Shown here: positions 12,829 through 30,718 of the stretch, piece by piece
How the letters are laid out: each line of letters opens with the position of its first letter
How positions within the stretch are numbered: position 1 is the stretch's first letter
Assembly (NCBI RefSeq): GCF_003426775.1
Contig: NZ_QJUG01000026.1
Span: forward strand, 1-53,062
DNA: 53,062 bases
Direction: 5' to 3'
Source: Allorhizocola rhizosphaerae
GTDB taxonomy: Bacteria; Actinomycetota; Actinomycetes; Mycobacteriales; Micromonosporaceae
Position numbers and translations under genes: made by a program
The notes under the pieces: model-generated
What the model was told of the DNA's origin: nothing
What the model saw: only the letters and a program-made list of their open reading frames with translations
The model's database searches: none

Positions 12829-13130
12829 CCCACCACGAAAGCATGCCTACTGAGGTGGCTCACCGCCATCCAGTTCGGCAACCTTCGGGACAGCGGATTG
12901 GGAAAGGCTTCTTCATCAGGTGCCTCGGCCCTGGCACTCGACTCTCCCCGTCTAGATCATTCCGTGAATATGCCGCGTTCTCCGCTGAGCGAGCGCATAC
13001 CACCGCCACGGGATCATGCGACTAGAGGCGCTGGTGGATGCGGGCCGATCGATTGGAGGCGAAGGCGGCCCGGCACCGCATGGGCTGTGCTCGTCATAGT
13101 GATCAGCTCCTGACATGCCGCACTACGCTC
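12829..13130. other. Gene-free interval with an arm-like repeat
   Basis: About 300 bases without a supported gene. It contains 12952-12977, which matches 14595-14620 (upstream of the duplicated tRNA end) at about 24 of 26 bases. The sequence after it is unrelated to a tRNA. It otherwise provides the promoter region of the toxin-antitoxin pair. Confidence 0.4.
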
Positions 13131-13145
13131 GACTACACTGTAGTC
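13131..13145 (+). promoter_or_regulatory. Palindromic operator over the -10 box of the toxin-antitoxin operon
   Basis: GACTAC at 13131-13136 mirrors GTAGTC at 13140-13145, a 15-base dyad ending right at the antitoxin ATG (13146). TACACT (13134-13139) inside it is six bases from the ATG and would serve as -10 for a leaderless transcript. A repressor bound here would block RNA polymerase and cover the initiation site, fitting autoregulation by the ribbon-helix-helix antitoxin. Inference from position and symmetry. Confidence 0.6.
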
Positions 13146-13595
13146 ATGACCGCTCCACGTTCCGTCCGTTTTGACGAGGCGGTGCTGTCCCGGCTCGACA
13201 AGTACGTCAGGGAGCACCCTGGTTCGTCGTCATCGTCGGTCGCCAACATGTTCATTGACGAATCACTGCGCGCCTATGAGCACCCCGGGATCGTCTTCCG
13301 CCCTGGGCCAACCGGTCGACGCGCCGCCCTGGCCGGCGGTCCCGACGTCTGGGAGGTCATCGCCGCACTGAATGCCATCCGCGACGAGAGCCCGGATCTC
13401 GACGGGGAAACCCTGGTGGATGAGCTGGCTACCGTCACCGGCTTGAGCCAGGCCCGAGTGAGCGTCGCCTTGCGTTATTACACGGCCTACCCGGCCGAGA
13501 TCGATGAACGCATTGCCCGCAACACTGAGGTGGCCGAGCGAGAAGAGCAATTGTGGGCAGCCCAGCAAGCGCTACTGAGGCGGCGGAAGCCTTGA
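13146..13595 (+). CDS. Antitoxin with RHH-like N-terminus and DUF433 domain
   Basis: 149 residues. Residues about 7-40 (VRFDEAVLSRLDKYVREHP) look like a ribbon-helix-helix DNA-binding segment. Residues about 42-120 (EHPGIVFRPGPTGRRAALAG, DVWEVIAAL, LSQARVSVALRYYTAYPAEI) are a DUF433 domain, the usual partner of DUF5615 PIN-like toxins. It would bind the toxin and repress the operon. ATG at 13146 lies directly behind a palindrome containing a leaderless-type -10. The longer frame from 13038 would run through that promoter and is rejected. The stop overlaps the probable toxin start. Confidence 0.8.
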   Translation: MTAPRSVRFDEAVLSRLDKYVREHPGSSSSSVANMFIDESLRAYEHPGIVFRPGPTGRRAALAGGPDVWEVIAALNAIRDESPDLDGETLVDELATVTGLSQARVSVALRYYTAYPAEIDERIARNTEVAEREEQLWAAQQALLRRRKP

Positions 13596-13951
13596 CAGGG
13601 TTGCTGCTCGACGAGATGTACCCGCCTGCTCTCGCGAAGCGGCTGCGCGACATGGGCCATGATGTCCTCGCCGTGTTGGACGTCGAGGTAGGGCTTGCCT
13701 CCAGAAGCGATGACGACGTACTGGCCTGGGCCGCGCGTAACAACCGATGCGTGGTTACCGAGAACATCAGCGACTTCGCACGCCTCGCAGCTCAAGGCGC
13801 CACCCACGCCGGCCTCATCTTCGTCTCTGCGCAACGGTTCCCGCGCACCGCCCGCGGACTCGCACGGCTTGGCGATGCCCTCGACGCGCTATGCGCCGCG
13901 AAGCAATTGCCAGGTGCGGATGGCGTAATCTGGCTCGCCGCCGAAGACTAA
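13592..13951 (+). CDS. DUF5615 PIN-like toxin
   Basis: 119 residues from a TTG overlapping the antitoxin stop (TTGA); a GTG at 13553 would give 132. LLLDEMYPPALAKRLRDMGHDV opens the protein as in DUF5615 nucleases, with the first catalytic aspartate. DDDVLAWAARNNRCVVTENISDF carries the central acidic and T-N-D.F residues of the PIN-like site, and the chain reaches the family's normal end. All key acidic residues seem present, so this toxin is probably active RNase, unlike the VapC fragment nearby. Confidence 0.78.
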   Translation: MTGLLLDEMYPPALAKRLRDMGHDVLAVLDVEVGLASRSDDDVLAWAARNNRCVVTENISDFARLAAQGATHAGLIFVSAQRFPRTARGLARLGDALDALCAAKQLPGADGVIWLAAED

Positions 13952-14129: not shown

Positions 14130-14525
14130 TCAACCCAGCGGAGCGGGCGTTCTTCGGCGCGATCTACTTCGTGGATCTGCGGCCGGGCGAGGCGATGGGG
14201 CTTCGTGAGCAGGACTGCCACCTTCCAGCCTCGTGCCTGGACTGCAAGGCGGACTTGACGCACGACTACTCCCGCGTGTGGTCCCTCGTTCGCCAGATCG
14301 CGCTGAAACCCGCTCAGGTCATGTCGGTGCTCGCTGGCACAGCCTATGACCTGCGCCACGCATGCCTGTCGCTGTGGCTCGACGCCGGGTTCCCGGACGG
14401 AGGTTGCCAACCGGGCCGGAAACTCCGTCGAAGTCCTGCTCAAGGTCTACGCGAAGTGCATAGACGGAGACGAGCAGCTCGTGAATCGGAGGATCGAGAA
14501 GGCGTTGCGAGGCGAACAGCTGTGA
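14130..14525 (+). pseudogene. Remnant of a second AICE integrase (C-terminal part)
   Basis: Parallels the intact integrase at 28,972-30,429: FFGAIYFVDLRPGEAMGLRE with CHLPASCLDCKADLTHDYSR corresponds to the intact LYFAALRPGEALGLR zinc-ribbon region. After a deletion, YDLRHACLSLWLDAGFP follows, then a frameshift at about 14,398, then VANRAGNSVEVLLKVYAKCIDG to a TGA at 14523. The catalytic-box histidine (RAGHSV in the intact copy) is Asn here. The N-terminal 270 residues, a central block of about 80 and the frame are lost, so it is dead. It proves an earlier, related element in the same site. Confidence 0.85.
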
Positions 14526-14545
14526 TCTTCAGATACAGTCAGAGG

Positions 14546-14573
14546 TGGCCGAACTCCGGCCGCTTCTTGCTTT
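14546..14573 (+). terminator. Hairpin after the integrase remnant
   Basis: GTGGCCG and CGGCCGC face each other around AACTC at about 14546-14562, followed by TTCTTGCTTT. It sits where the intact integrase has its terminator (30,442-30,480) and looks like the decayed counterpart. Confidence 0.45.
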
Positions 14574-14582
14574 GCGAGCTGG

Positions 14583-14730
14583 GAAAAACTGCTCCTAGAT
14601 CATTCCGTGAATGTTCCGCGACTGGCGACAAACAGGGCCGGTCATGGCGTCTGGTGGCAGCTGGTGGCACTGGCGTTCTAATTGCTCGCGGTGCATGTGC
14701 CCAGCGAGGGGTCCGTTTTGCCTGATCAAA
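14583..14730 (+). repeat. Left copy of the attP-flanking arm region
   Basis: About 150 bases that align with 30,493-30,642 to the right of the intact integrase: both have an AGATCATT motif, GCGACTGGCGACAA, TGGTGGCACTGGCGTTCTAA and GGTGCATGTGCCCAGC in the same order and spacing. Such repeats beside att cores usually bind the integrase N-terminal domain. Roughly one base in six differs, so this copy belonged to a related but distinct element. Confidence 0.75.
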
Positions 14731-14779
14731 TGGTGGCCCTGGCAGGATTCGAACCTGCGACGCACGGTTTAGGAAACCG
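14731..14779 (-). other. attL: 49-bp duplicate of the tRNA-Arg 3' half
   Basis: Identical, base for base, to 30,643-30,691. It covers tRNA-Arg(CCU) from position 28 (anticodon stem) to the CCA end. Beyond 14779 the sequence is not tRNA-like, so this is not a gene but the left boundary of the AICE, and simultaneously the former right boundary of the older decayed element whose integrase remnant precedes it. The crossover region spans the anticodon loop, as usual for tyrosine recombinases using tRNA genes. Confidence 0.93.
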
Positions 14780-14888: not shown

Positions 14889-17324
14889 CTAGACACCTTC
14901 ATTCCGGGCCTCATCCCGTCTACGTGCTGCATCCTGTGCACGTCGTTCCGCCTTGTCGATGTCAGCGGCCAGTGCAGCAGAGGCAATTGTCCAATCGAAC
15001 GGTAGATCAGAGCTTCCGCTGGGTAAGCGGTCCCACTGTTCATCGAAGTAGTTCTTGGCGATACGCGCACGTTCCAGGCGCTCATTGATGGATTGAACAT
15101 CCCTTATCAGACGGCGGTACTTGATATCGGTGATAGGCGTGTCGAGAACCATAGCGTCAAGGTAGGAGAACCGCTGCACCATTGACTTATACATGTAACT
15201 GCCTATGGTCGTGATGCGAAACGGCCCGTTGAAGGTATCTCCTTCTGGCGCAGATAGTAGGCCACGAGAAAGCGCTATTGCAATCTTTGGGGCTATCTGT
15301 TCCTGGCTGAAGCCAGCTGATTGACCGAATGATCGGATCACCGAAGATTCAACATAGCCCAAGCTATCACCCGCGACACCCTCGGCTTCGACACACGACA
15401 AGACCATGAGAAGTAGAAAGTGTTCCCGGCCATCGTCTGTATCGATGTCGAAAACGTTGCAAATTTTACTCTCGGAGGGAACATAATAGTTGTAGTCGCC
15501 ATAAATAATGGCTCGCATGAACTCATGTATCGGAACTCTGTATACGCCACCGCGCTCAGCTATCTCAACCATACGTTGAACAGAAACGAACGGACTACCG
15601 ATAAACGTGTTCAGGTACTCAAGCGCGGATCTGACATTTCCTCCGCTCAGATTATCAATGATCTCATTGAGTTCCCTGTTTTCTTTGAACGCCTTAATTA
15701 ACGCTTCTAGCACGGCCCGCATCGCTGGAGCGTTGACGCTGAATTGTGTTGCGAAAGCGCCTGATCCCGCTGCTTGCAGGAGCTTCTCATGCGCCCACTC
15801 AAGTCGGCGCAATATCACTTGATCGATCTTTGGAGGCGATACGGTAAAAACCTTGAGCGGGTACGCCGACAGCGACCCTTTTGTCTTGGACTCATACAAC
15901 GTTTTGGGGCGGAGCGAAACAAACACAGTCCCAGGCCAACCATCCGCTAGAGACTCTGCTATCAGGAATACCTCTTCTTGGTATGAAGGTTGCCTTTGAT
16001 CGATGTTATCAAGTACGAAGATCGGTGAACGCCGCTTCTTCTTCCGGAGGTGCTCAAATGTCTTCTTCAAGTGAGCTTCTGTGCGGCCTGTTAAGCCGAT
16101 CAGGTATTCAATCTCCTTCTCGCGATAGAGGGTCGGGTTCAGATCCGCATACTCACCTACAGGACTCTTTCGCAGTAGCTCAAGTTCCTTTTTGTAGACC
16201 GCCCTAACAAATTCGGATTCTTCGAAGTCGACGTGATGTATTTCTCTGAGTTGCTCGACTAAGCGCCGCGTGACGTACGATTTGAGGTCCGTTGCGAGGG
16301 CAGGCTCGCGGCCGAAGTCGATATAGAACACGTATGCATTGTTGAGAAGATCGCGTGCCTCAACCTCAAGAAGGTGTCGAATAAACATGCTCTTTCCGAC
16401 ACCAACGTCACCAACCAGTACTATCGGGCGATTGCTTAGCGCCTCCGTCATTGTAATGGCGGTCAATGACGGATTGATGCCCAACCTGGTTGTCACGCTC
16501 TCGGGCTTGGCTTGGACTGAGCGTTCAAGAGCGGCGTACCGCGATCGGAGAATTTCTTTGCTAACCGCAGAATATTGAGATAACGCACCGGTGGCACAGT
16601 AACAGTTCTTTATAAAGTCGGCCGAAATTGACCGAGATCTTCCCAGGTCCTGAAGGAACAACTCGCCAAGTTGCTTAAGGTCGGTTTCTAGATGAGTTCG
16701 TATGCGCAGAGTCTTGTAACCTTGAATCTGATCAGATGGCTTGGGCGGTGGTAGTGCCCGAGGAGATTTTCCTAGGAGGTGTCGCTGTAAAGTCTTTAAT
16801 CCAATTCCTTCGCGAGATAGGTTATTCCAGAGGCTATCGAAATCCGCCAGCATTTCGTCGAGCGACGAAAACAACAGTGCCCTTCCGTTGAGCGGAGGTA
16901 CTCCGTCCTGTCGAGAGGCATAGAATGCAACTAGTTGGCGACCATTCGTAAGTACGGCAATGGGCACGCCACGGTCCTGGCAGTAGCGCAGAACCTGTCG
17001 GACTGCCTTGTCACAAAGCGGGTCGTCTCGAAGGCTACGAAGATCAACTGAGCGACGTCCGGCAAGACCCGCCGGTAACGTGAAGTGCACTCCTTCGCGT
17101 TTCGCCTCAACTACCACCTCTGGTGTGGGTGCCCCGAGGACATAGTCGGCGTATTCGCCATCTTCGTAGTGTTCGGCTGTGACTGAGGAAGGACTCCAGT
17201 CGAGACAGTCATGCAGTAAGCGGTCGATGATACGATGCCTAGTAGTGGCTTCATTCAGGGAATCGCTACCAAGCTCGCGGATCAGGTCCTGGAGCTTGTG
17301 CTTACCGCTCATGTATCGGTCCAC
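14889..17324 (-). CDS. PD-(D/E)XK nuclease-P-loop ATPase fusion, candidate defence protein
   Basis: 811 residues, visibly less GC-rich than its neighbours. Residues 1-190 resemble the HsdR N-terminal nuclease: E25 in a leading helix, D60, then VVVEAK with E73 and K75, and QVLRYC (Q110) followed by VPIAVLTNGRQLVAFYA. After a helical linker a P-loop domain follows: Walker A GDVGVGKS at 305-312, Walker B IFVLDNID at 435-442, and VFVSLRP at about 468 as sensor-like strand. The C-terminal 280 residues show no clear repeats and end in a basic helix. No helicase motifs, methylase or specificity subunit occur nearby. GTG start at 17324 has GGAGAG five bases upstream. Cargo position beside attL suggests host-benefit; anti-phage function is inference. 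Confidence 0.8.
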   Translation of the reverse strand: MDRYMSGKHKLQDLIRELGSDSLNEATTRHRIIDRLLHDCLDWSPSSVTAEHYEDGEYADYVLGAPTPEVVVEAKREGVHFTLPAGLAGRRSVDLRSLRDDPLCDKAVRQVLRYCQDRGVPIAVLTNGRQLVAFYASRQDGVPPLNGRALLFSSLDEMLADFDSLWNNLSREGIGLKTLQRHLLGKSPRALPPPKPSDQIQGYKTLRIRTHLETDLKQLGELFLQDLGRSRSISADFIKNCYCATGALSQYSAVSKEILRSRYAALERSVQAKPESVTTRLGINPSLTAITMTEALSNRPIVLVGDVGVGKSMFIRHLLEVEARDLLNNAYVFYIDFGREPALATDLKSYVTRRLVEQLREIHHVDFEESEFVRAVYKKELELLRKSPVGEYADLNPTLYREKEIEYLIGLTGRTEAHLKKTFEHLRKKKRRSPIFVLDNIDQRQPSYQEEVFLIAESLADGWPGTVFVSLRPKTLYESKTKGSLSAYPLKVFTVSPPKIDQVILRRLEWAHEKLLQAAGSGAFATQFSVNAPAMRAVLEALIKAFKENRELNEIIDNLSGGNVRSALEYLNTFIGSPFVSVQRMVEIAERGGVYRVPIHEFMRAIIYGDYNYYVPSESKICNVFDIDTDDGREHFLLLMVLSCVEAEGVAGDSLGYVESSVIRSFGQSAGFSQEQIAPKIAIALSRGLLSAPEGDTFNGPFRITTIGSYMYKSMVQRFSYLDAMVLDTPITDIKYRRLIRDVQSINERLERARIAKNYFDEQWDRLPSGSSDLPFDWTIASAALAADIDKAERRAQDAARRRDEARNEGV

Positions 17325-17520
17325 AGCCGCTCTCCTCTCAAGAGCGCTAATTCTACGAGCATAAAACTCGGGAAAGCTACCTAGTCAGTAGCGTGGCTGT
17401 TTCGTCTGCGAAGCTACTTGCGCAAACAAGATTCTTTCGTCCATCCCCGTCCGCCATCGGCCCGCCCTTGCGCGGGCCCGACAGGTTCCGGCTCGGCTTG
17501 CCCCGGGTCGATGGAGGATG

Positions 17521-20749: not shown

Positions 20750-21178
20750 TTATAGGAGGTTGGTGCCGTCGTGGTGGCGGATGGCTGGGATGTGGGTGTC
20801 GCGCAGGGCATCGAGGATGCGGATACCGAAGGCTTCGCTTTGGCCTGCGGTGACCTGGTCAGGGGTCCACCATGCGACTTCTGCGGATTCGTCGGTGGGG
20901 TGTGGTTGTCCTGAAAGGAGTTCGGCGCGTAGGACGAGGGCGACGACGCCGAGGTTCATGTTTTTGTAGATGCCGGTGAGCCGGGTCGGTTTGACGTCGA
21001 CGCCGGTTTCTTCCCGGACTTCGCGGACGACGCCGTCTTCGATGGTTTCGTCGAGTTCGAGCACGCCGCCGGGTAGTTGCCATGCACCGTTGTCGCGTCG
21101 CTTGATGACCAACACCTTGCCGTCGTCGTTGGTGATGACGGCGGCGACGCTGACGGAGTGGCGGGAGGACTGGCTCAT
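20750..21178 (-). CDS. Nudix hydrolase, Pif-like element immunity factor
   Basis: 142 residues with the full Nudix box (GGVLELDETIEDGV, REVREETG). In pSAM2 the pif gene, located beside korSA, encodes a Nudix-motif protein that prevents redundant transfer between element-bearing cells. Position and length here suit that role. Its ATG overlaps the PP2C stop by four bases, so it is the third gene of a GntR-PP2C-Nudix operon. Two relatives sit at 9,883 and 10,385. The hydrolysed nucleotide is unknown. Equivalence to Pif is by family and context. Confidence 0.85.
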   Translation of the reverse strand: MSQSSRHSVSVAAVITNDDGKVLVIKRRDNGAWQLPGGVLELDETIEDGVVREVREETGVDVKPTRLTGIYKNMNLGVVALVLRAELLSGQPHPTDESAEVAWWTPDQVTAGQSEAFGIRILDALRDTHIPAIRHHDGTNLL

Positions 21179-22028: not shown

Positions 22029-22787
22029 CTACTCGTCCCATCCGTAGCGCAGCTTCCACAGATACCCCGGCATGACATGAACGGTCACCTCGACGGGCCT
22101 GTCCTTCCCGTCGTAGGCAACGTGCCAGATCTGAAAGACGGGCTGGGTCGGTTCGAGTTCGAGTACCCGTTGTTCCTCGTCGGTGGGCATGCGCACGGTT
22201 ACATCTTCGGTGAAGCGTGCTGGTCCGTGGCCGATATCGGCCAAACGCTCGTAGGATCCGCCGGGGCCGGCGTTCTCGTTGAGTAGCTCAGGACTTTTCT
22301 CGGCTATGGTCCACGGGATGTATGAGTCGGCGATTTGTGTGGGCTCGTCGTTGGCGTACAGCACGCGGCTACGGATCAGAGTGGGTTGATCCTTTTTGAT
22401 GCCAAGGGTTTCGGCGACGTCCTCCGGTGCGGGTGTCTCGGCGATGCGCCGATAGACGGTTTTGGATTGTAGGTTGTGGAAGCGGGCTTCCACATCTCCG
22501 GCTCCGGTGCCCTGTGCCCTGGCGGCGTATCGTGCCTTGGCGTCGCGGTGGATCATCGGGAGGGCGCGGACGAGAGTGCCGCTGCCGCGCTTGACCTTGA
22601 CGTGCCCGGCGATGCGGAGGAGGCCCACGGCGCGATTGACGGTGACGCGCGAGACGCCCAGCTCGTCGGCAAGGCGGTCTTCGCTCGGCAGCGGGCTTCC
22701 CGCGGGGTAGGTGCCGTCTTCGATGCGGCGCAGCAGTAGTTCTGCGATCTGGCCGTATTGAGACCTCGGCGTCTCGATCATTGCCAT
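22029..22787 (-). CDS. GntR-family repressor with UTRA domain (KorSA-like)
   Basis: 252 residues: winged helix at about 1-75 (IAELLLRRIEDGTYPAGSPLPSEDRLADELGVSRVTVNRAV) and a UTRA effector domain in the remainder (TLIRSRVLYANDEPTQIADSYIP, QPVFQIWHVAYDGKDRPVEVTV). In pSAM2 KorSA is the GntR protein that represses the activator gene pra; here it is likewise divergent from a Pra-like gene across three matching operators. ATG at 22787 or 22781. A TACAAT box on this strand (22800-22805) touches the first operator, implying autoregulation. Confidence 0.87.
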   Translation of the reverse strand: MAMIETPRSQYGQIAELLLRRIEDGTYPAGSPLPSEDRLADELGVSRVTVNRAVGLLRIAGHVKVKRGSGTLVRALPMIHRDAKARYAARAQGTGAGDVEARFHNLQSKTVYRRIAETPAPEDVAETLGIKKDQPTLIRSRVLYANDEPTQIADSYIPWTIAEKSPELLNENAGPGGSYERLADIGHGPARFTEDVTVRMPTDEEQRVLELEPTQPVFQIWHVAYDGKDRPVEVTVHVMPGYLWKLRYGWDE

Positions 22788-24245: not shown

Positions 24246-24628
24246 CACCGATCAGTGCACGGATGTTGCGGCGTCGTCTGGCGGTCGCGTCGGCAGCGTC
24301 GTCGGTGGTCTTTGAGGGTCGCCGGGTTGAGCTGGCGGCGATACCGGCTGTGGCGCGGGTCGCGATTCTTGCCGAGGCGGCCGGAGCGTTGGCCGCGTTG
24401 GCACGCAAACAGGCGCTGCTGTCGCATGTGGACGCTAATCAGGTCGCGCAGTTGGTGACTGATCCGGTCGACGCGCGGGCGGTGCTTGGTCGTGGGCGGT
24501 GGACGCCGTTGATGTGCCGTCCGGTTCTTGCGGTACCTGTGCGCAACACGCGCCGCGCGGCGAGTCGTTCTGCTGCGGTGTCGGCGGTTCAGCCGTCGTT
24601 GTTCTCGCCCATGGACGAGGGGAGGTAA
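24242..24628 (+). CDS. AICE protein of unknown function
   Basis: 128 residues, starting inside the previous stop. Basic, alanine- and arginine-rich: MLRRRLAVASAASSVVFEGRRVEL, then a helical AVARVAILAEAAGALAALARKQALL. The tail is loose (RAASRSAAVSAVQPSLFSPMDE). It ends six bases before the tra gene. No family recognised; basic composition and location before the translocase make a DNA-binding or tra-accessory role possible. Confidence 0.6.
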   Translation: MTPISARMLRRRLAVASAASSVVFEGRRVELAAIPAVARVAILAEAAGALAALARKQALLSHVDANQVAQLVTDPVDARAVLGRGRWTPLMCRPVLAVPVRNTRRAASRSAAVSAVQPSLFSPMDEGR

Positions 24629-24633
24629 CCATC

Positions 24634-26127
24634 ATGTTCGGCAAACCCGTTGCGGGGGACCGGCATCCGGAGCGTGTTGTGATGTCGCGGTCGGTGCTTC
24701 GCAAGCCGACCATGGGGATTCCGTGGCCGTTGTATCTGCTCGGCCAGCTAATCAAGTGCCTGTACTGGGGCGGCTCATGGGGCCTGAAGTGTTACCTACG
24801 GTTTTGGTGGGTCACCATGCCCGCGACCGTGGTGGGCTATGGCTGGTGGCGGTACGGCTGGGGTCTCACCGTTTCCATCCTGGCTGCCGTAGCGGCAGGG
24901 TTGGCGGTGTGGTGGTGGCGGCATCCGGCGACGTTCTCGCGGTGGCTGGGCTGGTTCTACATCGCGCAGTGGCGTCGCTGGTTCGTCTTCCGTAAGCCGT
25001 GGTACCCGACATGCGCCAACCTCGGCTTGGCAGTCGCGTTCGACGGTGACCGGTACTACCCGAGCATCATCAAAGTGCGCCGCGACGCCGAGGGCGACTT
25101 GGTCACGGTGCGGATGCTCCACGGTCAGCATCCCAACGATTGGGCCAAGCACGCTGCCCGGTTCGCGTATGCCTTCAACGCGCTGTCGTGCCGGGTGCGG
25201 TCGGTGAGCGGGAGGCGTGGACGGAATCGCATTGTGCTTCACGTCCAGGTCCGCGACTCGCTGGTCACAACGATCGCGCCGTTGCCGGTGCCGGCCGTTC
25301 CGGACTTGCGAAGGTTGCCGGTAGCGATACAGGCCGGTAGCAAGAAGGTCTTCATCTCGCTGGTGACGCACGTGCTCATCGCCGGAGCGTCCGGGGCTGG
25401 GAAAGGCTCGGTGCTGTGGGCCATCGTCGCCGGGCTTGCGGCGGGTGTCCGCGACGGCACGATCCGCCTGTACGGCTTCGACGCGAAGGGCGGTGTGGAG
25501 CTGATCAACGGCGAGCCGCTGTTCCATCGGCTGTACTTCGGCGATCCCGAGTCGATGGCCGGGGCGCTCGAAGACCTGGTCAAGACCATGAAGAGGCGAC
25601 AGGAGACCCTTCGCCAGCGGCGGCAGCGCACGCACGAGGCCACGCCGGGTGACCCGACCATCGTGATAGTCATCGACGAGTTCGGAGCGATGATCGCGTA
25701 CCTGACGGATAAGAAGCTCAAAGAAAGGATCAATGCCGCGCTGTCGCTGATCCTGTCGCAGGGCCGGGCGGTCGGGGTGCATGTCGTCGCCGCGTTGCAG
25801 GATCCGCGCAAAGAGATCCTTCCGTTCCGGAACCTGTTCACAACCCGGATTGCGTTGCGGCTCAACGAAGAGTCCGAAGTGGGTCTGATTCTGGACGATG
25901 ATGCGGTCGATCGCGGAGCGGCCTGCCATGAAATCCCCGAATCGCTGCCTGGTGTCGCGTACATGATGCTCGAAGGTGATCAACAGCCGGTTCGGTTGCG
26001 CTTCCCCTACCACGACGACACCCAACTCGCAGAGCTGGGCCAGCAGTACCGGCCCGCGATCAACCCACCGACCGTGCTCGACGGACAGGTGTTGGACATC
26101 AAGCCTGTGTATGAGGTGAACCGATGA
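24634..26127 (+). CDS. FtsK/SpoIIIE-like conjugal DNA translocase (TraSA/TraB-like)
   Basis: 497 residues; start ATG 24634 has GGGGAGG upstream. Two or three membrane helices lie at about 55-100 (FWWVTMPATVVGYGWWRYGW, LTVSILAAVAAGLAVWWW). The motor domain has Walker A GASGAGKGS at 251-259 and Walker B IVIVIDEF at 343-350, followed by LSQGRAVGVHVVAALQDPRK, typical of FtsK-like transfer proteins. In actinomycete elements one such hexameric pump moves double-stranded DNA between hyphae by recognising a clt repeat. A separate gamma winged-helix domain is not obvious. Overlaps the next gene by four bases. Confidence 0.9.
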   Translation: MFGKPVAGDRHPERVVMSRSVLRKPTMGIPWPLYLLGQLIKCLYWGGSWGLKCYLRFWWVTMPATVVGYGWWRYGWGLTVSILAAVAAGLAVWWWRHPATFSRWLGWFYIAQWRRWFVFRKPWYPTCANLGLAVAFDGDRYYPSIIKVRRDAEGDLVTVRMLHGQHPNDWAKHAARFAYAFNALSCRVRSVSGRRGRNRIVLHVQVRDSLVTTIAPLPVPAVPDLRRLPVAIQAGSKKVFISLVTHVLIAGASGAGKGSVLWAIVAGLAAGVRDGTIRLYGFDAKGGVELINGEPLFHRLYFGDPESMAGALEDLVKTMKRRQETLRQRRQRTHEATPGDPTIVIVIDEFGAMIAYLTDKKLKERINAALSLILSQGRAVGVHVVAALQDPRKEILPFRNLFTTRIALRLNEESEVGLILDDDAVDRGAACHEIPESLPGVAYMMLEGDQQPVRLRFPYHDDTQLAELGQQYRPAINPPTVLDGQVLDIKPVYEVNR

Positions 26128-27241: not shown

Positions 27242-28768
27242 ATGTTTCGTGCGCCCGAAAACAGCCCGGTCCACGTCGACGCCGACGAGCGCTTGACGCG
27301 TGGGCTCCTTCAGGAGCTGTCCGGGCTCCCGCTCGTCGACGTCCCCGGCGACCCTGACGGGCTGCTGGCCCGCGCGGCCCGACCGGACCTCGGTGGCTGG
27401 CTCGCCCACGCGGCCCGTGCTCGGGGTTGCGCGCATCCTGTCCGATTGCGCGGTGAGGTACTGACCGTGCAGGCGTCGACAGGTGTCGTGTTGCAGCGGT
27501 TCAACACCGACGACCTGCCCGACAAGGTCCTGTATAAGCCTTGCGGCACAAGGCTTGCCTCCCGTTGCCCAGCGTGCGCCGAGGTCTACCGCTGGGACAC
27601 TTACCAGCTCGTGAAAGCTGGCCTGGCGGGAGGTAAGGGCGTGCCGGAAACGGTTGCGACGCATCCGGCCGTGTTCGCTACCTTCACCGCCCCGTCGTTC
27701 GGGCTGGTGCACACCCGCGACGCGCGCTCCCCGAAGCCGTGCCGGCCACGTCGCGACCGGCCCGTCTGCCCGCACGGAAAACCCTTGTCGTGTATGGCGT
27801 TGCACGCCGAGAACGATCCGCGCTTGGGCCAGCCGCTGTGCCTGGACTGCTACGACCACACCCATCACGTCGTGTGGAACCACCTGGTCGGCAAGCTGTG
27901 GGACCGGACCATGCTCCGCCTGCGCCGCGCGACGGGTGCCACAGGAGCCGGGCCTATCCGGCTGCGGTTCGCCAAGGTCGCCGAATACCAGCGACGCGGC
28001 GTCGTCCACCTGCACGCGCTGATCCGCATCGACGGGCACGACCCCAACGACCCGGACGCGTTCCTACCGCCTCCCGTGGCGGTCGCGCCGGACGGCTCCA
28101 CGATCCCGCTTTACAGCGCCGCACGCCTCGCTGAGACGGTCAAGACGGTGGCGGCCGAACTCGCGCTGCGAACCCAAGCGCACCCGGCCAACGCGGACGG
28201 CTGGGTGATCGCCTGGGGCCACAAAGGCATTGACGCCAAAGTCGTACGCACCGGGCTGCCCGGTGGCGAACTGACCGAACAGCACGTCGCCGGATACCTG
28301 GCCAAATACGCCACCAAGGCTACCGAGGTCTGCGGCGTTACCGCTGGGCGGATCACGTCCGAAACCATTGCTGCGTATGGGGATCGCGCACGGCACACGA
28401 ACCGATTGATCCTCGCGAGCTGGGATCTTGGCGCCTACGTGGAGTGGATGGGGCTGCGGCGTTGGGCACACCGGCTCGGCTTCGCGGGCCACTTCTCGAC
28501 GAAGAGCCGCCGCTACAGCACAACGCTTACCGCACTGCGGCGGGCGCGGCGCCCACAGAACCGTATCCAGGTCACCGCGATCGACGAACAGGACCCGGCC
28601 GAGCTGACCGAAGACCTCCACGACGACGAGACCACCCTCGTCATCAATCACTGGCAGTACGTCGGAAACGGTTGGCAGACAACAGGAGATGCAGCCTTGG
28701 CCGCGATGGCCGCTGATGCTGCGCGGCAGAGACGCCCGGCTTCGAGCGCGGGAACCAATCAAACCTAG
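27242..28768 (+). CDS. HUH-type replication initiator (RepSA-like)
   Basis: 508 residues; AAAGGAGG precedes the ATG at 27242. Rolling-circle signature: the HUH metal motif VVHLHALIRID (H256, H258) and a downstream GYLAKYATKA with tyrosines at 352 and 356 as nicking candidates. The N-terminal half has cysteine clusters (CGTRLASRCPAC at 101-112; CPHGKPLSC and CLDCYDH further on), probably zinc-binding. RepSA of pSAM2 starts autonomous replication of excised elements before transfer. It is followed 18 bases later by xis, giving the classic rep-xis-int order. Confidence 0.88.
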   Translation: MFRAPENSPVHVDADERLTRGLLQELSGLPLVDVPGDPDGLLARAARPDLGGWLAHAARARGCAHPVRLRGEVLTVQASTGVVLQRFNTDDLPDKVLYKPCGTRLASRCPACAEVYRWDTYQLVKAGLAGGKGVPETVATHPAVFATFTAPSFGLVHTRDARSPKPCRPRRDRPVCPHGKPLSCMALHAENDPRLGQPLCLDCYDHTHHVVWNHLVGKLWDRTMLRLRRATGATGAGPIRLRFAKVAEYQRRGVVHLHALIRIDGHDPNDPDAFLPPPVAVAPDGSTIPLYSAARLAETVKTVAAELALRTQAHPANADGWVIAWGHKGIDAKVVRTGLPGGELTEQHVAGYLAKYATKATEVCGVTAGRITSETIAAYGDRARHTNRLILASWDLGAYVEWMGLRRWAHRLGFAGHFSTKSRRYSTTLTALRRARRPQNRIQVTAIDEQDPAELTEDLHDDETTLVINHWQYVGNGWQTTGDAALAAMAADAARQRRPASSAGTNQT

Positions 28769-28786: not shown

Positions 28787-28975
28787 GTGGACGATGAGCT
28801 TCTGACAGTGCCGGAAGTGCTCGCCGAACTGCGGGGAGTGTCGAAGAGGACGTTCTACCGCTGGCGGGAGCTCGGCCGTGCACCACGTTGTTTCCGGTTG
28901 CCCAACGGAGAACTTCGCGTCTCCAAGGGTGACCTGAAGGTGTGGCTTGAGAAGCATCGCGAGGTGGCGGTGTGA
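28787..28975 (+). CDS. xis: Excisionase (MerR-like HTH)
   Basis: 62 residues from a GTG. A single winged helix-turn-helix: LLTVPEVLAELRGVSKRTFYRWRELG then RLPNGELRVSKGDLKVWLEKH, the standard small excisionase fold that bends att DNA to favour excision. The stop overlaps the integrase start (GTGA), as in pSAM2. Confidence 0.9.
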   Translation: MDDELLTVPEVLAELRGVSKRTFYRWRELGRAPRCFRLPNGELRVSKGDLKVWLEKHREVAV

Positions 28976-30429
28976 AGAGCTACGACGTCAAGATCTGGAA
29001 CATCCAGGTCAACCGGCTGACCAAGGGTAAGTCGTACACGGTGCGGTGGAAGGTGGCAAAGGTGCCACCTTTCTCGCGCACCTTCGTGACGCGTCCGTTG
29101 GCCGACAACTTCCGGTCGGATCTGAAGCAGGCGATTAACGCGGGCGAGCCTTTCGATACCGAGACGGGATTGCCGGATTCGCTTGTGGAGGAGCCGAAAG
29201 AGGAGGCTTTGACGTGGCTCGACTTCGCGATGACCTACGTGAAGATGAAATGGCCGGGCGCGGCCGCGAAGAGCCGGACGAGCATGGTCGACGCCTTGGC
29301 AACGGTAACTCCGGCGCTGTGTGAGGAGGTGCCGGGCCGGCCGGAGGATGAGCTCTTGCGAGATGCGTTGCGGGATTACCTATTGCCTCCGGATCGGCGC
29401 GAGCGGGAGCGGCCGGAGGAGATTCAATGCGCGGTGGCGTGGCTGGAGTGCAACTCTGTGGCGCTCTCGCGCCTGGCGGAACCCGCGATTGTACGGGCAG
29501 GGCTGGACGCAATCGGGCTGAAGATGGATGGCAAGCCGGCCGCGGTGACCACGATGCGGCGCAAGCGTTCCGTGTTCTTCAACGTGCTTCAGTACGCGGT
29601 TGAGCTTGAGTTGCTGGACTACAACCCGATCGACAAGCTTCGGGTCAGGTCGCGCCGGTCCAAAGTGGTCACTGTAGTTGATCGTCGTGTGGTCGTGAAC
29701 CCGAAGCAGGCGCGCCAGCTGCTGGCGGCTGTGACCTACATCGGTGAGCGGGGCCGTGGTCCACGGATGCGGGCGTTCTTCGCATGCCTGTACTTCGCTG
29801 CACTGCGGCCAGGTGAAGCGCTTGGACTCCGCGCGCAAGACTGCAACTTGCCCGAGGTGTGCGAGGCGTGCGGGCTTGACCTAACGCACGACTTCAACCG
29901 GACGCCGGTCAACGGCTGTGAGCACGAGCAGGTCAAGCACGCATGGGGCCTGCTCAGCCTGGAGAAGAACCGTCCGGCTGCGGGCAAGCGTTGGACCGAC
30001 AGCGGTCAGGCGCACGACGAGCGGGCGCTCAAGCACCGTGGGGAAGAGGAGCCGCGGCCGGTTCCGATCCCACCTGAACTCGTGGGCATCCTCCGGGAGC
30101 ACATCCGGACCTACGGCGTCGGTGAGGACGGGCGGATCTTCTCCAGCCGCAAGGGCAACGTTATCGGCTCGGCGGCGTACTCGAAGGTGTGGCGTGAGGC
30201 GCGAGCGGTCGGGCTGTCTCCCGCTCAGGCAGCGTCTCCGCTTGCCGGGCGCCCGTACGACTTGCGTCACGCGGGCGTCTCGCTCTGGCTCAATGCAGGC
30301 GTCCCAGCTCCCGAGGTCGCGGAGCGAGCGGGCCACTCCGTCGACGTGCTTCTGAAGGTGTACGCCAAATGCATCGATGGCCAAGCCGACGTCGTGAACC
30401 AACGGATCGAGGCGGCTCTCTCGGCCTGA
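28972..30429 (+). CDS. int: Tyrosine site-specific integrase
   Basis: 485 residues; GTG overlaps the xis stop. Catalytic residues are all visible: R279 in ALRPGEALG, RH at 432-433 in PYDLRHAGVSLWL, H455 in RAGHSV and nucleophile Y464 in LLKVYAKCID. An insert with CNLPEVCEAC...CEH (about 291-318) forms a zinc-ribbon-like element between the first and second catalytic boxes, seen in AICE integrases. The gene lies 213 bases from attR, in the right place to act on the tRNA-Arg att site. Followed by a strong terminator. Confidence 0.95.
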   Translation: MKSYDVKIWNIQVNRLTKGKSYTVRWKVAKVPPFSRTFVTRPLADNFRSDLKQAINAGEPFDTETGLPDSLVEEPKEEALTWLDFAMTYVKMKWPGAAAKSRTSMVDALATVTPALCEEVPGRPEDELLRDALRDYLLPPDRRERERPEEIQCAVAWLECNSVALSRLAEPAIVRAGLDAIGLKMDGKPAAVTTMRRKRSVFFNVLQYAVELELLDYNPIDKLRVRSRRSKVVTVVDRRVVVNPKQARQLLAAVTYIGERGRGPRMRAFFACLYFAALRPGEALGLRAQDCNLPEVCEACGLDLTHDFNRTPVNGCEHEQVKHAWGLLSLEKNRPAAGKRWTDSGQAHDERALKHRGEEEPRPVPIPPELVGILREHIRTYGVGEDGRIFSSRKGNVIGSAAYSKVWREARAVGLSPAQAASPLAGRPYDLRHAGVSLWLNAGVPAPEVAERAGHSVDVLLKVYAKCIDGQADVVNQRIEAALSA

Positions 30430-30492: not shown

Positions 30493-30642
30493 GGCAAAAC
30501 AGCCCCAAGATCATTGCACGTATTTTGCGCGACTGGCGACAACTGCCCGCCGATCATGGCGTTCGGTGGCATCTGGTGGCACTGGCGTTCTAATTGCTCT
30601 TGGTGCATGTGCCCAGCAAGGGGGCTGTTTCGCCTGATCAAC
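30493..30642 (+). repeat. Right copy of the attP-flanking arm region
   Basis: Aligns with 14,583-14,730 in the same order (AGATCATT motif, GCGACTGGCGACAA, TGGTGGCACTGGCGTTCTAA, GGTGCATGTGCCCAGC), ending at the att core. Likely integrase arm-binding DNA. The 26-base stretch 30505-30530 recurs imperfectly at 12013-12038, 12952-12977 and 14595-14620. Confidence 0.75.
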
Positions 30643-30691
30643 TGGTGGCCCTGGCAGGATTCGAACCTGCGACGCACGGTTTAGGAAACCG
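30643..30691 (-). other. attR: 49-bp core within the intact tRNA-Arg gene
   Basis: Identical to 14,731-14,779. The element restores the 3' half of the tRNA, so the gene stays whole. The core ends at tRNA position 28; the next base (30692, position 27) differs from the left copy. Confidence 0.93.
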
Positions 30692-30718
30692 ACGCTCTAT
30701 CCCCTGAGCTACAGGGCC
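30643..30718 (-). tRNA. tRNA-Arg (anticodon CCU)
   Basis: 76 bases including an encoded CCA. The acceptor GGCCCTG pairs fully with CAGGGCC; D arm GCTC...GAGC, anticodon loop TTCCTAA (CCT at 34-36) and T arm GCAGG-TTCGAAT-CCTGC are all regular. The only blemish is a T27-T43 mismatch at the outer anticodon-stem pair, exactly at the att core edge. It reads the rare codon AGG in this GC-rich genome. Host site of the AICE. Confidence 0.95.

Follow-up and report, generated by a model that had tools for sequence, protein, structure and literature searches.

A predicted HsdR-type nuclease joined to an Orc1/Cdc6-type AAA+ ATPase: a candidate single-gene defence protein carried by a pSAM2-type AICE

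The integrative element and its cargo gene

The window examined in this study (the whole 53,062-nucleotide stretch of Allorhizocola rhizosphaerae DNA) contains an exact 49-bp direct repeat, 14731-14779 and 30643-30691, which corresponds to the 3' end of a tRNA-Arg(CCT) gene. The element bounded by this repeat encodes a RepSA initiator, an FtsK-type transfer protein, an integrase, a GntR-UTRA regulator and a NUDIX protein, and is a pSAM2-type AICE. We take the regulator to be KorSA-like, and the NUDIX protein is presumably Pif-like. The features of the element are as follows:

14731-14779, plus strand: att repeat, a remnant of the tRNA-Arg 3' end and the element boundary on the cargo side (exact 49-bp repeat)
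14889-17324, minus strand: focal gene, encoding an 811-aa predicted nuclease-AAA+-winged-helix protein (GTG-start ORF with a ribosome-binding site; PHROG 14719 match)
17330-17336, minus strand: ribosome-binding site AGGAGAG, 6-12 bases 5' of the GTG start
20750-21178, minus strand: NUDIX protein (PF00293, E 1.5e-22)
22029-22787, minus strand: GntR-UTRA regulator (domain match)
24499-26127, plus strand: FtsK/SpoIIIE-type transfer protein (PF01580, E 4.9e-17)
27242-28768, plus strand: RepSA replication initiator, pSAM2 family (PF20199, E 6.5e-143)
28972-30429, plus strand: tyrosine integrase (PF00589, E 4.3e-7)
30643-30718, minus strand: intact tRNA-Arg (CCT), containing the other att copy (30643-30691)

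The focal gene ends approximately 110 bp inside the att repeat at 14731, in agreement with a sequence-only reading of this DNA that had described it as AICE cargo beside an att site. The ORF is real and complete, with 811 codons; in 300 shuffles of the region, no stop-free run exceeded 309 codons. Its GC content is 0.519. At 0.547, its GC3 is below that of one host gene and of the four other genes of the element that were compared (0.76-0.84), so the AT-richer composition proposed earlier is also borne out. The main element ORFs scanned included no methyltransferase, again as first proposed, no HsdM or HsdS partners and no second defence gene.

The profile of PHROG 14719 spans residues 19-745 of the window protein (E 9e-79) and is matched by all 39 aligned family members (best E 2.9e-301), a full-length family match to a sequence cluster that has no function or mechanism attached. 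No full-length model for the family was found in Pfam or NCBIfam, and PADLOC-DB 2.0 gave weak partial matches only (best 0.002 for the window protein). No description of the family was found in the literature reached, including under six homologue accessions. The protein had been put forward as undescribed; as far as the literature searches reached, this holds for its function, but not for the family itself, which is already catalogued.

Several observations concern the surroundings of the element. The interval 14637-14779, which lies partly outside the element, is 92% identical to 30549-30691, and the plus-strand region 14171-14725, which overlaps it, resembles the terminal part of the integrase gene of the element. 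This is probably a leftover from an earlier or a tandem insertion at this tRNA. Just outside the element, also on the plus strand, a gene for a DUF5615/PIN-like protein (13553-13951; PF18480, E 2.3e-17) and its upstream ORF (13038-13595) resemble a toxin-antitoxin-type pair. Of two relatives, one (G1073) has the tRNA-Arg with no match to the window element's integrase alongside, whereas the other (G1072) has a related integrase at tRNA-Arg, a contrast consistent with this tRNA being a used integration site.

Predicted nuclease, ATPase and C-terminal modules

The modules of the 811-aa protein, all on the minus strand, are as follows:

16755-17324: predicted HsdR-type PD-(D/E)XK nuclease domain, residues 1-190 (E25, D60, E73, K75, Q110xxxY114; conservation, profile and fold matches)
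15600-16472: predicted Orc1/Cdc6-type AAA+ ATPase, residues ~285-575 (AAA_22, E 6.3e-6; fold matches to Cdc6 1fnn, TnsC, BrxC and RdrA)
16389-16412: Walker A, GDVGVGKS, residues 305-312 (sequence, alignment)
15999-16028: Walker B strand (FVLDNID), residues 433-442 (sequence, alignment, model)
15174-15467: predicted winged helix, residues ~620-717 (C-terminal model and structure matches)
14889-15173: predicted helical C-terminal tail, residues ~718-811 (model), at the spot where some relatives carry S1 or cold-shock domains

An HsdR-N-like nuclease had been proposed on the basis of E25, D60, E73-x-K75 and Q110. In an alignment of 39 diverse homologues, E25, D60, E73 and K75 are identical in every member, while position 110 holds Q in 26 members and E in the other 13, and Y114 is present in all 39, giving a QxxxY motif. 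This is the motif of HsdR-type PD-(D/E)XK nucleases. HSDR_N (PF04313) was recognised in 17 of the 39 members (best 4.1e-14), although not in the window protein itself, and the family profile matched the HsdR structure 3h1t (E 8.1e-7), with the catalytic positions of the two in register. In addition, the N-terminus of the structural model matched the BpuSI nuclease (Z 10.7 over 147 residues). Residues 1-190 are thus predicted to form an HsdR-type nuclease domain, and the alternative of a non-nuclease fold with unconserved acidic residues is contradicted by both the alignment and the structure matches.

The P-loop ATPase that had been proposed is also present, with Walker A where it was expected and Walker B at residues 433-442 (first given as 435-442). 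G305, G308, G310, K311, D439, N440 and D442 are invariant across the 39 homologues, and the sensor-2 arginine R565 is kept in 38 of them. The active-site residues of both the nuclease and the ATPase are therefore invariant despite an overall identity of only about 20%. By itself, the window protein gave only weak ATPase profile matches, of which AAA_22 is the one listed above. In an AlphaFold2 model of the 811-aa protein (mean pLDDT 82.8, pTM 0.70), the fold of the ATPase part matched Cdc6 1fnn (VIA-align Z 13.7 over 327 residues, with an rmsd of 8.7 because the alignment runs across domains). It also matched 5uj7_D (270 residues, Z 12.9, rmsd 4.4), TnsC 7m99 (Z 11.9), RdrA 8hr8 (Z 11.6) and BrxC 9zdx (Z 11.1). 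No helicase family was matched by the window protein or the 39 homologues, in keeping with the earlier claim that helicase motifs are lacking, and there is no SF2 translocase. On the evidence of this model, the central ATPase is predicted to be of the Orc1/Cdc6-TnsC AAA+ type rather than a typical Avs/STAND module.

The C-terminus had been thought to differ from those of familiar systems, and a predicted winged helix followed by a helical tail was indeed found there. Folded alone, the C-terminal part reached a pLDDT of 91.3 and matched winged-helix proteins at Z 6.7-7.7, a level that by itself possibly reflects a common arrangement, but nearly all of the top PDB rows were winged helices. No repeat-rich C-terminal sensor is evident in the 811-aa model, where the winged helix and a tail of about 90 residues occupy this part instead. 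An S1 domain was recognised in 13 of the 39 aligned members. A clade of proteins of approximately 880-910 aa, mainly from viral contigs, has an S1 RNA-binding domain at the C-terminus (L015, L032, L036-L044, L047-L052), and a more distant homologue (L012) has a cold-shock domain in its place.

Each module resembles part of a known system. The nuclease resembles type I HsdR in its PD-(D/E)XK residues, its QxxxY motif and its significant profile match; however, the window protein is without an SF2 translocase or HsdM/HsdS partners, and its nuclease is joined to a Cdc6-type AAA+ ATPase. Ordinary type I restriction-modification is rejected, as the translocase is missing and the main element ORFs scanned include no partner genes. 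With the Orc1/Cdc6 initiators and TnsC-type AAA+ proteins, the window protein shares the AAA+ fold, the sensor-2 arginine and a winged helix after the lid, but it is fused to a nuclease and gives no sign of a host-initiator or transposon-regulator role. Two defence ATPases, BrxC of BREX and RdrA of RADAR, have folds matching the ATPase part, but each belongs to a multi-gene system in which no HsdR-type nuclease is fused to it.

Close published parallels are conflict systems, predicted to act against invaders, that combine an Orc/Cdc6-clade ATPase with a REase-fold domain, according to the passages of PMC10853773 considered here (citing Zhang et al. 2016). In those passages, the CR-effectors have a C-terminal REase, and other Orc/Cdc6-REase systems lie in multi-domain neighbourhoods with HerA/FtsK and have an inactive REase as an insertion ahead of the wHTH. 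The domain pairing is the same as in the window protein, which instead has one N-terminal nuclease of the HSDR_N type in a single gene. In the literature reached, no description was found of an N-terminal HSDR_N-type nuclease and an Orc/Cdc6 ATPase in one gene, and none of the nuclease and ATPase passages considered from Rousset 2022 (PMC9122126) and Vassallo 2022 (PMC9519451) describes such an architecture. The PHROG 14719 cluster and NTPase-gated nucleases are known already, and what appears new within that literature is the predicted domain order in a single gene.

Distribution and genomic settings of the family

The family is rare and patchy and consists of single genes on mobile DNA, so the single-gene organisation first seen in the window extends to the homologues. 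Homologues were found on 30 plasmid records, at 43 viral-contig loci, in six species genomes (with a three-sequence alignment as the query) and, at high coverage, in 15 E. coli chromosomes. Genome contigs scanned with the single window protein gave no match, and a tblastn search of sequenced phage records with three family members also gave none, whereas the 43 viral-contig loci did match. Homologues were present in 2 of 396 Actinomycetota genomes (one of these with a weak match to the nuclease alone; the single protein as query gave 1 of 396), in 2 of 297 genomes of the window host's class, in 4 of 399 genomes of its order and in 4 of 398 Pseudomonadota genomes (centre included); these frequencies, approximately 1% overall, are rough, as few candidates were scored per genome. 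The window protein forms a pair in the tree with an actinobacterial homologue (L074, ~48-49% identity), and the clade around them otherwise consists of Pseudomonadota, plasmid and viral-contig rows. Two other actinobacterial homologues, L097 and L099, have 40-41% identity and a GC3 below that of their neighbours, and L099 is near an ORF identified by eye as serine-recombinase-like.

A survey of neighbours placed the homologues in mobile and in defence-rich loci and not in housekeeping loci. Integrases adjoin four homologues (L009, L010, L018 and L020), one of which (L018) sits beside the integrase of a P4-like satellite that also encodes AlpA and a primase. Another adjoins the terminase and capsid genes of a degraded prophage (L007), one is on a phage-plasmid-like Klebsiella record (L005), and in E. 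coli the homologues are carried by Rac-type and other lambdoid prophages. Several of the closer homologues have other predicted conflict genes beside them. Restriction-modification genes are of type II at L002 and of type I at L006, as they also are at the more distant L012. At L063 the neighbour is PDC-S37, and at L060 the neighbours are PDC-S32 and TPR-GreAB-C-PIN, a predicted counter-invader system (PMC8195603). The two-gene TPR-GreAB-C-PIN system is directly upstream of this Vibrio homologue (L060:3493-9508). A YobI-type ATPase is a neighbour at L003. No obvious defence neighbour was seen at L062, L064, L065 or L097, where the ORFs were read by eye only.

In E. coli lambdoid prophages, two homologue subfamilies, which share only about 22% identity with the window protein, adjoin DUF977. 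WP_040091717 and WP_001349602 are E. coli prophage homologues. The interval from DUF977 to hokD/DUF968 is a variable cargo slot (L066, L068, L069, L070, L087-L091). In other E. coli it is occupied by AbiH with a hypothetical gene, QueH with NgoMIV restriction-modification genes, a RelA/SpoT protein, a HEPN protein or AAA ATPases. Of the slot cargos compared with PADLOC, AbiH was matched at 1.7e-27, the RelA/SpoT protein as PDC-S33 (E 5.3e-119) and the AAA protein in part by PDC-S06 (3.1e-23), while the HEPN protein was unmatched. These five alternative cargos were picked for their defence-like names and do not represent an unbiased count, and many of the remaining occupants are hypothetical genes, QueH alone, hydrolases or insertion sequences. 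Any enrichment of defence genes in the slot is thus suggestive. QueH is itself a frequent occupant of the slot.

Proposed function and alternative explanations

From the location and anatomy of the gene, we infer that its product probably serves as a self-contained cargo defence protein against incoming DNA, whether from phages or from competing mobile DNA, in which an ATP-dependent, DNA-bound assembly would license the nuclease. The HsdR-type nuclease would be the effector, and the Orc1/Cdc6-type AAA+ module with its winged helix (and the S1 or cold-shock domain in relatives) would be the DNA-engaging sensor and switch. In such a cycle the protein would bind ATP and then load or assemble on invader-specific DNA or a replication structure, whereby at least two nuclease domains may be brought together to cut DNA, and ATP hydrolysis would reset the system. 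Since no methylase is linked to the gene in the ORFs scanned, it would be up to the trigger to tell self from non-self. The DNA that is cut could be that of the invader or that of the host, and protection might take the form of direct immunity or of abortive infection. Cdc6/Orc1 and TnsC, the proteins matched by the ATPase part, form DNA-loading rings or filaments. A more specific version of the proposal, which we offer tentatively, is that the AAA+ module loads onto the site where invader replication starts or onto a replication structure, so that foreign initiation would be sensed, with the swappable S1 and cold-shock domains tuning the nucleic-acid ligand.

With this proposal, PHROG 14719 changes from a nameless cluster of phage proteins into a concrete one-gene defence candidate that can be tested and whose active-site residues are named, and the E. 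coli prophage homologues make this candidate tractable in E. coli. It also raises the question of whether a DNA-loading ATPase of the Orc1/Cdc6 type can trigger a restriction-type nuclease when no methylation marks self DNA.

There are several alternative explanations for such a protein. It is conceivable, if rather unlikely, that the nuclease serves competition between elements or element maintenance, and that it attacks rival plasmids, AICEs or conjugating DNA, or lowers the copy number of relatives, instead of attacking phages. Plasmids, AICEs, satellites and prophages all carry the family alike, and an ATPase of the replication-initiator type would be well placed to recognise the replication of plasmids or elements; however, the E. 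coli slot also houses restriction-modification, AbiH and RelA/SpoT genes, which are usually anti-phage.

An improbable alternative is a sensor nuclease of the STAND/Avs type, in which a C-terminal ligand sensor is activated by a phage protein and leads to abortive infection. The likeness to Avs-type STAND nucleases that had been drawn at the outset holds for the general plan, as both are single proteins with a nuclease effector at the N-terminus and an NTPase switch in the centre. At an E threshold of 0.01, nSTAND_NTPase5 matches 12 of the 39 members (best 2.1e-7) and NACHT matches 6, and the 'SLRP' segment at R472 resembles the STAND sensor-1 arginine. Against this, Cdc6/Orc proteins, rather than NLRs, head the list of fold matches for the ATPase part, the nearly universal R565 and the winged helix point towards Orc1/Cdc6 and TnsC, and at 811 aa the protein is much shorter than Avs, with no evident repeat-rich sensor.

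We give still less credence to a role in transposition or integration, in which a TnsA-like nuclease fused to a TnsC-like AAA+ regulator would serve a transposon. TnsA is a PD-(D/E)XK nuclease, the ATPase part matches TnsC, and at two loci there are genes for a Mu-type transposase and TniB a few kb away (L003) or integrases nearby (L008). Nevertheless, no transposase gene recurs beside the homologues across the loci viewed, the nuclease profile match is to HsdR, and the integrase of the window element, together with its tRNA att sites, already accounts for its mobility.

Least probable of all is an ordinary part in element or host DNA metabolism, as a replication, repair or segregation helper without a conflict role: an Orc1/Cdc6-type ATPase with a nuclease and a winged helix could process replication intermediates, and two homologues (L015, L017) are near replication genes, but against this the family is rare, patchy and single-gene, and its copies frequently occupy variable cargo slots and are in many cases broken. 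The apparently broken copies include four (L045, L054, L059 and L067), on separate contigs or chromosomes, that are split into two ORFs, and one (in H44) that is interrupted by an IS. Their frequency is compatible with a costly gene.
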